Source: Acidilutibacter cellobiosedens | GTDB taxonomy: Bacteria; Bacillota; Clostridia; Tissierellales; Acidilutibacteraceae | Assembly (NCBI RefSeq): GCF_004103715.1 | Contig: NZ_CP035282.1 | Coordinates: 620,001 to 684,000, forward strand | DNA: 64,000 bases | Direction of reading: 5' to 3' | Shown here: in pieces, positions 15,231-56,580 of the stretch | How positions within the stretch are numbered: position 1 is the stretch's first letter | How the letters are laid out: every line of letters starts with the position of its first letter | Notes under the pieces: model-generated | Databases searched by the model: none | The model's input: the letters and a program-made list of their open reading frames with translations, nothing else | Told to the model about the DNA's origin: nothing | Program-made: the position numbers and the translations under genes

Positions 15231-15335
15231 TTATAAAAAAGGCTTCTATTGAAGCACATAAATTAAGGAAGTCTTTCTTGAAATCCATTTACGGAAAATA
15301 TAAATTAATGAAAATAGGATTTTCCTATGGATTAT
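15231..15335 (+). repeat. Dispersed palindromic element, copy 1 (direct)
   Basis: About 105 bp, matching the 102-bp unit of the array at 52.9-53.3 kb over its whole length: TTATAAAAAAGGCT, a hairpin arm ending in CTTTCTT, then TTGAAATCCATTTACGG, AAAATATAAATTAA and a final TTTTCCTATGGATTAT. It ends 20 bases before the start codon of the SLH gene at 15355. The rest of the gap at 15103-15230 is AT-rich with no recognisable gene. Confidence 0.8.
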
Positions 15336-15354
15336 AAAAAGGGGAGTGATTGGT

Positions 15355-17934: not shown

Positions 17935-18216
17935 TATAAATCATTAAATCCGAGTAAAAGACTATGAATTGGTAAGTAGAATGTTCAAACCATTATAGAG
18001 AGGGTTTCATTGGTGGAAGAAATCTATGGAATTTGCATTTGAAGTGCACCAAGGAGTTTTTAACCGAAGAATAAGTAGGCTTAAACGGTATTTCCCGTTA
18101 TAGAAATAGGGTATGAATGTGCCCGAAAGAGATGGATTTGTTCTAAACAGAGTGGAACCGTGAAAGTGAACCTTTTGCCTCTGAATTATATGGAGGGAGA
18201 GGTTTTTTTATTTTAA
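17935..18216 (+). promoter_or_regulatory. T-box riboswitch upstream of cysE, probable Cys specifier
   Basis: The leader has the T-box core CAGAGTGGAACCGTG at 18148-18162, a stem III-like hairpin TTTCCCGTTATAGAAATAGG at 18091-18110, and a terminator (AACCTTTTGCCTCT ... GGGAGAGGTTTTTTT) ending near 18210. A candidate specifier codon TGC (Cys) at 18034-18036 lies in the Stem I region before GAAGTGCACC. Uncharged tRNA-Cys would stabilise the antiterminator and switch on cysE. A TATAAT at 17921 is the likely -10 box. The fit of a Cys codon with a cysteine-pathway gene supports the reading. Confidence 0.85.
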
Positions 18217-22410: not shown

Positions 22411-22478
22411 TTTATAACCCACAGGGGAATTATAATATACCTTAGTGTGAATTTTCCGTAAAGTGGGTTCCAAAAAAA
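22411..22478 (-). repeat. Dispersed palindromic element, partial inverted copy 2
   Basis: Reverse complement reads TTGGAACCCACTTTACGG, AAAATTC, and ends CCTGTGGGTTATAAAAAA, matching the second module of the 102-bp unit. The terminator-like first module is reduced to an A/T run. It lies 50 bp before the SLH gene start at 22528, in the opposite orientation to copy 1. Confidence 0.65.
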
Positions 22479-22527
22479 GAAGGGAGGGAATATTTTTAGA
22501 TTAAACTAAACAGAAGGGGGTTTACCA

Positions 22528-52794: not shown

Positions 52795-52874
52795 TTTATA
52801 ACCCATAGGAAAGTTATAGTATATATTAATAAAATTTGACCTTAAGTGGGTTTCTTTTATAAAAGCCTTTTTTC
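52795..52874 (-). repeat. Dispersed palindromic element, inverted copy 3
   Basis: Read on the minus strand: AAAAAAGGCTTTTATAAAAG, then AAACCCACTTAAGG, an AT-rich centre and TTTCCTATGGGTTATAAAAA. It faces the four direct copies downstream and so makes a large inverted arrangement between the ZIP and tsaC genes. Confidence 0.75.
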
Positions 52875-52915
52875 TATATAATACATATTCTTGAATTCTT
52901 CTATAAATACCAAAT

Positions 52916-53327
52916 TTATAAAAAAGGCTCTTATTGAAATTGATAAATTAATGAAGCCTTTTTTGAAACCCACTTAACGGAAAATATAGATTAAGGAGAA
53001 CATAATTTTCCTATGGGTTATAAAAAAGGCTCTTATTGAAATTGATAAATTAATGAAGCCTTTTTTGAAACCCACTTAACGGAAAATATAGATTAAGGAG
53101 AACATAATTTTCCTATGGGTTATAAAAAAGGCTCTTATTGAAATTGATAAATTAATGAAGCCTTTTTTGAAACCCACTTAACGGAAAATATAGATTAAGG
53201 AGAACATAATTTTCCTATGGGTTATAAAAAAGGCTCTTATTGAAATTGATAAATTAATGAAGCCTTTTTTGAAACCCACTTAACGGAAAATATAGATTAA
53301 GGAGAACATAATTTTCCTATAGGCTAT
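52916..53327 (+). repeat. Four tandem copies of a 102-bp palindromic element
   Basis: The GGCTC landmark recurs at 52926, 53028, 53130 and 53232, an exact 102-bp period. The first three copies look identical; the fourth differs only at its end (CTATAGGCTAT for CTATGGGTTAT). Each unit has module A, AAAAAAGGCT ... AGCCTTTTTT, a perfect 10-bp terminator-like stem, and module B, AACCCActtaacGGAAAAT ... ATTTTCCtaTGGGTT. Between them TTGAAA-N16-TATAGA resembles a promoter and AAGGAG follows. There are no spacers, so this is not CRISPR. The remaining DNA to 53495 is AT-rich without a clear gene. Confidence 0.92.
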
Positions 53328-53495
53328 AAAAAGCGGTAATTGGCGATAATATAAATTAAATATTACTTGTTTGATAATAGTAATTATAGATTTTTGTTGT
53401 GAATTAATTATGTCTTTTGAATTTGAGATGAAAATTATATGAATTTACGATATAATAAGTTATTAGAAAGGTATAATAAAAGGAAGGTTACAGAT

Positions 53496-56154: not shown

Positions 56155-56168
56155 AAATAGAATTTTAT

Positions 56169-56217
56169 AACAAAGGCTTCCTTAATATAAAAAATTAATA
56201 TTAAGGAAGCCTTTGTT
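56169..56217. terminator. Long palindromic terminator after upp (module A of the dispersed element)
   Basis: AACAAAGGCTTCCTTAATAT and ATATTAAGGAAGCCTTTGTT are perfect 20-bp complements. Together with the following GAAACCCATTTACC and TTTTCCCATAGGATAT to about 56252 it matches the two-module layout of the dispersed element, in a diverged form (copy 8 of all copies, direct). Confidence 0.75.
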
Positions 56218-56257
56218 GAAACCCATTTACCTGATTTTCCCATAGGATATAAGAATA

Positions 56258-56294: not shown

Positions 56295-56580
56295 TAAAAT
56301 ATTTTAAATTTGATGAATAGAAATAGTAAACGATAATTTCTGAATTATAGCGAGTCGGAGTCGGTGTAAGTCCGATATTTAGAGTTTTGTTGAATGGGTC
56401 TAGGAATTATGGGGCGAAGTATAGTAGCCTTAATCGGGGATTTCCCGTTATAGAAATAGGATATCGAGTATTATAACTCCGTATCTGTTAGAGTGAGATG
56501 AATATTATTCATCTAATGTGGGTGGTATCACGGAAATTAACCTTTCGTCCCTTTGTTATGGGGATGAAGGGTTTTTTTAT
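56295..56580 (+). promoter_or_regulatory. T-box riboswitch upstream of trpP, probable Trp specifier
   Basis: T-box core GTGGGTGGTATCACGG at 56518-56533 is followed by a terminator (AACCTTTCGTCCC ... GGGGATGAAGGGTTTTTTTA, 56539-56580). The stem III-like TTTCCCGTTATAGAAATAGG at 56441-56460 is identical to that of the cysE T-box. A candidate specifier TGG (Trp) is at 56395-56397 after TTGAA. Uncharged tRNA-Trp would allow read-through into the tryptophan transporter gene. Confidence 0.85.

Follow-up and report, generated by a model that had tools for sequence, protein, structure and literature searches.

In the 64,000-bp stretch of the Acidilutibacter cellobiosedens genome analysed here (the window, from whose first base the coordinates in Table 1 are counted), a ZIP-type transporter gene and a Sua5-type gene diverge, and the space between them contains an array of a short repeat. 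Tandem-repeat analysis delimits the array to 52916-53332, with a period of 102, 4.1 copies and 99% matches. The first-pass annotation had described it as a perfect 4 x 102-bp array; the array is real, while perfection applies to units 1-3, which are identical over 108 bp, and not to unit 4, which carries CTATAGGCTATAA in place of CTATGGGTTATAA. The ends of unit 1 were set from filled and empty sites of another genus and hold to +/- 1-2 nt. The copies previously reported at 15231 and after upp were recovered, the former followed by an SLH gene whose first possible start codon is at 15346, and the inverted copies proposed at 22411 and 52795 are equally real, but both are decayed. The window also contains two T-box leaders (Rfam RF00230), at 17955-18185 and 56304-56555, the second of which precedes a TrpP-type tryptophan transporter gene.

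Table 1. Copies of the repeat, hairpins of array unit 1 and adjoining genes in the window
Feature	Position	Strand	Remarks
Single full-length copy	15231..15337	+	82% identity; directly upstream of SLH gene
Inverted copy, H1 decayed	22412..22501	-	E 8e-7; before SLH gene
ZIP-type transporter gene	starts 52777	-	beside array
Decayed inverted copy, H2 and H1 remnant	52796..52862	-	E 0.003; directly before ZIP-type transporter gene
Array unit 1, match to model R1	52916-53023		
Array unit 1, inferred element ends	52920..53021	-	AAAAAAGGCT...GGGTTAT on +; ATAACCC...TTTTTT on -
Hairpin H1 of unit 1	52919..52965	+	AAAAAAGGCT...AGCCTTTTTT; terminator-like on both strands; fold and covariation
Hairpin H2 of unit 1	52967..53019	+	AACCCA..GGAAAAT...ATTTTCC..TGGGTT; fold and covariation
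Array unit 2	53018..53125	+	identical to unit 1; TTATAA common to adjoining units
Array unit 3	53120..53227	+	identical to unit 1
Array unit 4	53222..53329	+	2 differences near 3' end
Sua5-type gene	longest ORF begins 53439	+	beside array
Copy with shortened H2	56165..56252	+	E 1e-7; after upp, before T-box leader

On the strand that bears the target, which for the array is the - strand, the element reads 5'-ATAACCC..H2..TTTC..H1..TTTTTT-3', is about 100 bp long and carries no gene. In the family consensus, hairpin H1 is represented by AAAAAAGGCTTC...GAAGCCTTTTTT and hairpin H2 by AACCCA..CGGAAAAT...ATTTTCC..TGGGTT. The two stems per unit that had been proposed are borne out by folding, as a unit reaches -23.4 kcal/mol compared with -13.15 (sd 2.68) for shuffled sequences, of which 0 of 200 reached as good a value. 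Covariation was scored within and across genera. Among 83 matches of the A. cellobiosedens genome, aligned by fitting to the covariance model, 84 cells are changed on both sides of a pair as against 26.2 (sd 4.4) after shuffling, and among 31 copies of different genera, aligned without a structure model and scored with a structure written after a best-register search of the same alignment, 66 such cells compare with 17.9 (sd 3.4) in shuffles and with 5-8 when the partners are slid. The foot of H2 occurs as CCCA/TGGG, CGCA/TGCG, TGCA/TGCA and CACGC/GCGTG; a second subfamily, with AACTCA opposite TTCGTT, has an incompletely paired foot, so that 12 of the 31 rows lack one of the H2 pairs. As judged by eye, H1 and H2 types occur in differing combinations across genomes.

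According to fold and covariation, palindromes lie near both ends of the element and flush with them, leaving no free stretch before H2, and the strongly conserved TTTC before H1 is not complementary to the T-run. Nearest copies diverge less in stem columns than in unpaired ones (0.128 versus 0.174). Among the 265 stem pairs that changed between nearest copies of at least 78% identity, 136 no longer pair in one or both copies; the structure is probably kept in spreading lineages with old copies decaying. In the genus of the two sister species compared below (G007 and G023), the H2 loop (loci L289-L308 and L313-L330) contains a DnaA-box-like TTATCCACA, which is found within one mismatch in 17 of 28 near-full copies and in 0/28 of the reversed control, is also present in L136 and L137, and was not seen in the A. 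cellobiosedens copies inspected.

The repeat belongs to a large family. A DNA search of the 3.74-Mb genome gave at least 60 matches, at least 52 of them below E 1e-11 (best 40 of 138 candidates scored), and a search with covariance model R1, built from 24 copies (alignment A1), gave at least 126 at E <= 0.1 (best 150 of 7395 candidates scored), such that the further copies foreseen for this genome exist in large number. Of these 126, 115 were taken on (E < 0.01), with two antisense shadows excluded and a third antisense shadow dropped later by E-value; the 107 good copies with E < 1e-3 served for gene-context counts and the 106 passing a length filter for end logos, while a separate listing of matches in the same genome holds at least 83 and reports overlapping tandem copies in part. 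Nearest-neighbour identity among the dispersed copies has a median of 0.85 and a maximum of 0.92; these copies are old, which weighs against the explanation favoured below. Of the 107 copies, 101 lie outside the ORFs of a simple ORF caller, in agreement with the claim that the element always lies between genes, which fails for the six that overlap an ORF, five at its edge and one on a 63-aa ORF. Larger, gene-carrying versions were found neither among at least 16 places that match the H2-end pattern outside the copy list nor among 10 proteins near or between neighbouring copies, nine of which proved ordinary in a Pfam scan and one of which had no Pfam match. Two near-identical stretches of more than 200 bp, in opposite orientation and about 7 kb apart (L238 and L239, at 1534852 and 1541797 of the genome), both contain TTTCTTATTCGTTATAA without the remainder of the element.

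The genes around these 107 copies are arranged in every possible way, with both neighbours running against the element at 41, both along it at 28, divergent genes at 20, convergent genes at 17 and one copy unassigned, and this distribution gives no support to the notion of a regulatory cassette. The promoter-like module suggested earlier is not confirmed either: TTGAAA is part of the strongly conserved joint of H1 and H2, and the second hexamer is, by eye, not kept in the cross-order alignment. A consensus scan pairs TTGAAA with a different second hexamer in each array unit and reports 10 promoter-like sites in the array region as against 5.1 (sd 2.5) in shuffles. Neither a conserved promoter nor a gene-linked role was found in the cross-order alignment and the gene context of the 107 copies. 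From its predicted structure H1 may stop transcription on both strands; a consensus scan for terminators with loops of 3-8 reported none in the array region.

Beyond A. cellobiosedens, matches at E <= 0.001 are present in at least 31 of 199 genomes of the order, in at least 19 of 78 genera, and matches at E <= 1e-4 in at least 20 of 391 genomes of the class, at least 18 of them outside the order; both scans were run with stricter filters and scored a small number of candidates in each genome, so that the counts are lower bounds. Three species of one genus possess 69, 15 and 10 matches at E <= 0.01. A looser pattern search of genome_contigs gave 20 stretches and of viral_contigs none, while a strict pattern matched in neither of them. 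With the looser pattern, the assembled genome Clostridiales bacterium DJKA123_ANT-F21_bin.21 has 16 hit stretches, the nearest copies of which are 93-96.5% identical and thus closer than those within the A. cellobiosedens genome, and Lutispora saccharofermentans has one, which appears truncated in H1. Plasmid and phage collections gave no DNA-similarity match to the element, and no family of Rfam 15 matched it in the stretches searched, six microRNA matches by E-value all being below the gathering scores; as in the first-pass annotation, no named family was found in the literature searched, in Rfam 15 or in the plasmid and phage collections. Three places (L351, L361 and L366) have similar DNA following the H2 end (ATCGTCTTCGACGAATTTATCTCACTTCG...), and the element may there have been copied together with a second repeat or may insert next to it.

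Filled and empty sites were compared between the sister species G007 and G023, of which about 380 and 366 kb were covered and whose aligned stretches are mostly 90-95% identical. Among 28 near-full copies, 11 have both flanks together in the DNA of the other species, and at all 11 of these comparable sites the other species is without the element, with none shared; the remaining 17, with no flank pair in the compared DNA of the other species, were not counted. At the cleanest junction the element is located between CCCCCTTTT and TCCATAAC, with CCCCCTTTTTCCATAAC as the empty site, and at two other junctions it stands behind T-runs, the empty sites being ATTTTTTTT and GGTTTTTTT. In the cleanest junctions a T-run precedes the element and A or C follows it, a single ambiguous T being all that could count as duplication, and by eye no empty site shows a target duplication beyond about 1-2 nt, the uncertainty of the junctions themselves being 1-2 nt. 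Although end logos show TTATAA or a near form on both sides of many copies, the idea that TTATAA represents a target duplication is at odds with these empty sites, and TTATAA at both ends is mostly the element's own end beside a preferred T-run.

At least three of the seemingly empty sites retain a remnant, TTATAATCCA, and therefore reflect partial deletion of an older copy rather than a virgin target, so that gain and loss both occur; one of the first two empty sites examined may be such a loss. A site that is filled in G023 and empty in both G007 and a third species, G049, speaks for a gain. Of 10 aligned places, three had unmatched left flanks and were hence uninformative.

T-runs, frequently those of intrinsic terminators, tend to precede the H2 end, which is a preference and not a strict rule. 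In the A. cellobiosedens genome, strong stems (<= -10 kcal/mol) are predicted in 28 of 90 H2-side flanks, compared with 6/90 on the H1 side, 3/90 shuffled and 11/90 at +150, and the other 62 H2-side flanks are without one. In the sister species, where the T-run could be taken from 26 and the base after the H1 end from 23 of the 28 copies, 7/26 H2-side flanks fold at -8 or better (shuffled 0/26), and the T-run before ATAA, with the element's own T counted, has at least four residues in 16 and two or three in 10 copies. Next to the H1 end, C stands in 16, A in 6 and T in 1 of the 23 copies, yet some empty sites have A at this position; apart from the excess of A and C at +1, the H1 side is unconstrained.

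The copies used include 16 abutting pairs, picked by register (within 3 nt) and rechecked without the register filter. Each of them has an overlap of exactly 6 bp, and all remaining neighbours are at least 46 bp apart. Eight pairs are homotypic (identity >= 0.989) and eight heterotypic (0.71-0.85). For unlike units in exact register, insertion at the T-run/A edge of H1 is the best explanation; for identical units, including those of the array in the window, it is later duplication, given that identity between dispersed copies does not exceed 92%. By GC skew of sampled stretches, the replication origin lies near 0 and its terminus near 1.8 Mb (1.83 Mb was used). After same-strand copies less than 700 bp apart had been merged into 88 sites, the target-bearing strand was found in the lagging-strand template at 58 of them (p 0.004), a figure confounded with gene direction, with 134 of 175 flanking genes running with replication and the strand split at same-direction sites largely following the genes; at divergent and convergent sites alone, 22 of 31 show the same bias (p 0.029).

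The copies within the genome and in other genomes, their position relative to ORFs and the site comparison of the sister species support the earlier proposal of a mobile, non-coding, dispersed repeat. On the present comparisons, the repeat is rather probably a non-autonomous, gene-less single-strand DNA element of about 100 bp, similar to the PATEs (palindrome-associated transposable elements) of the IS200/IS605 kind, and because of its target, ends, structure and strand and of its likeness to PATEs and IS200/IS605 a single-strand mechanism is suggested. An HUH-type (Y1) or similar single-strand nuclease would act in trans on H1 and H2 folded on the lagging-strand template, would cut behind the hairpin-plus-T-run on both sides and would paste the excised strand behind another hairpin-plus-T-run, as in IS200/IS605 and supposedly in PATEs. 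Insertion takes place preferentially just after a T-run, in many cases that of an intrinsic terminator, without target duplication and with A or C usually as the next base. Because H1 finishes with a T-run and A comes next, an inserted element would itself become a target for the next one, which would lead to head-to-tail arrays; the near-identical units of the array in the window would derive from later local duplication or homogenisation.

In the excerpted account of PATEs from Haloquadratum, these are described as IS200/IS605-related, and the element shares with them palindromes close to the ends, the absence of both terminal inverted repeats and target duplication, a length too short for a transposase, losses by partial deletion and, as a preference rather than a strict rule, a one-sided short target motif (PMC3119063). 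Set against that same account (PMC3119063), the element differs in that it is bacterial, has palindromes flush with its ends, is directed to a T-run that often belongs to an intrinsic terminator, and forms exact head-to-tail arrays, also of unlike units, while no IS605 transposon with matching ends was found at the Y1 loci examined. IS200/IS605 elements target the lagging strand, according to excerpts of two reports (PMC6006769, PMC5371812), and carry guide sequences before each palindrome, according to those of another (PMC8266576), for which the element, as far as that description goes, would seem to have no room because its palindromes are flush with the ends. SPRITE and BOX of Streptococcus pneumoniae, compared by description only, are likewise short intergenic repeats; in the excerpts of their description SPRITE is AT-rich with a terminator-like hairpin and has no established target duplication and no empty site found, whereas BOX has inverted repeats and target duplications (PMC3049150). 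The element looks like an unnamed relative of the known hairpin-ended mobile repeats.

Candidates for the mobilising enzyme were sought among Y1 transposases and group II maturases. Within 34 Y1 loci (flanks of up to 1.5 kb; a subset of the places listed), no model match fell below E 0.05, six weak ones having E 0.09-0.65, and no palindromes or ends common with an IS605-type transposon were seen; the conserved element end, as an exact motif, was absent at 19 Y1 loci, the ends of IS200-type elements gave no link to the element, and tblastn for a Y1 transposase in loci L330-L369 gave no match. The element carriers G007, G009, G072 and G120 are without a PF01797 (Y1) match. The A. cellobiosedens genome encodes two Y1 (RAYT-like) genes (L086 1340-2210 and L087 ~1900-1950). 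The flanks of these genes carry another repeat, with ACCGTCCCC, which seems to be a REP of their own. A Y1 transposase as linked mobiliser was rejected on the absence of a link in 41 genomes, at the IS200-type ends, at the Y1 loci and in the carriers. The maturase PF08388, three of which are present in A. cellobiosedens, had no match in element-bearing G007, G023, G027 and G037, and a group II maturase was rejected as mobiliser, with no association with element presence.

A RAYT encoded elsewhere in the genome could spread the repeat in the manner of REP/BIME sequences, with which it shares, in the excerpts of the two descriptions, many structured intergenic copies per genome and single-strand hairpins as likely substrate (PMC2817692, PMC8266576). 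In accordance with this possibility, Y1 matches, many of them of RAYT length (255-310 aa), are found in 27 of 31 element-bearing genomes as against 18 of 29 genomes without element match (Fisher p 0.037), the latter being those of a 41-genome Y1 set that lack a model match, six of them with weak DNA-search matches. The GTAG-like tetranucleotide that precedes the palindrome of REP/BIME in these excerpts (PMC2817692, PMC8266576) is, however, not seen in the cross-order alignment of the element, which also differs from what is described there in that its units combine two unlike hairpins, arranged alike in the aligned copies, and in that it does not lie beside the Y1 genes examined; with a good match at 0/34 Y1 loci, the conserved end at 0/19, another repeat at the A. 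cellobiosedens RAYTs and four carriers without a Y1 match, RAYT-driven spread is improbable. A structured cis-regulatory RNA or terminator cassette under selection at each place would be consistent with covarying stems, with stem columns more alike than unpaired ones and with an H1 that is terminator-like on both strands, but copies occur in all gene arrangements and both orientations, the two sister species differ at 11 of 11 comparable sites, about half of the changed stem pairs are broken, so that old copies decay, and the promoter-like second hexamer is not conserved, all of which makes selection at each place distinctly improbable.

Three other routes were weighed against the single-strand element. 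Group IIC introns insert behind terminator hairpins without target duplication. Similarly, a retro-element, a - strand RNA that ends in H1 and is copied into DNA behind terminators, might account for the one-sided target, the lagging-strand bias and the missing target duplication; it is nevertheless very unlikely, as no group II intron family of Rfam matched in the stretches searched and several carriers are without a match to the maturase. Equally unlikely is template switching or slippage between terminator T-tracts without a dedicated enzyme, with which T-runs at both the target and the H1 end in A. cellobiosedens and homotypic arrays reminiscent of local duplication would agree; in G007 and its genus the H1 end has GTT instead of a pure T-run and the cleanest junctions are nonetheless precise, and the cross-order conservation of both hairpins would stay unexplained. 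A classical MITE, as the annotation's term MITE-like implied, would account, as target duplication, for the TTATAA or similar sequence on either side of many copies, but end logos and alignments show no terminal inverted repeats beyond TTATAA itself and the empty sites of the sister species no duplication, by which a classical MITE is contradicted and scarcely credible. A variant of the single-strand reading, possible though unlikely, holds that the repeats are a separate class of single-strand element with the intrinsic terminator as integration signal, which would be moved by a nuclease or recombinase other than Y1, possibly one of the host, and maintained in several orders of Clostridia by exchange of H1 and H2 modules.

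If the non-autonomous single-strand element is real, it would constitute a widespread clostridial family of short, structured elements that has no name and no match in Rfam 15 and that prefers terminators as landing sites. Such a family would offer a natural case for the target choice of single-strand elements, for the persistence of gene-less repeats across orders and for the effects of insertion on transcription ends, and the spread of copy number within a single genus, from 69 to 15 and 10, would make gain and loss directly measurable.
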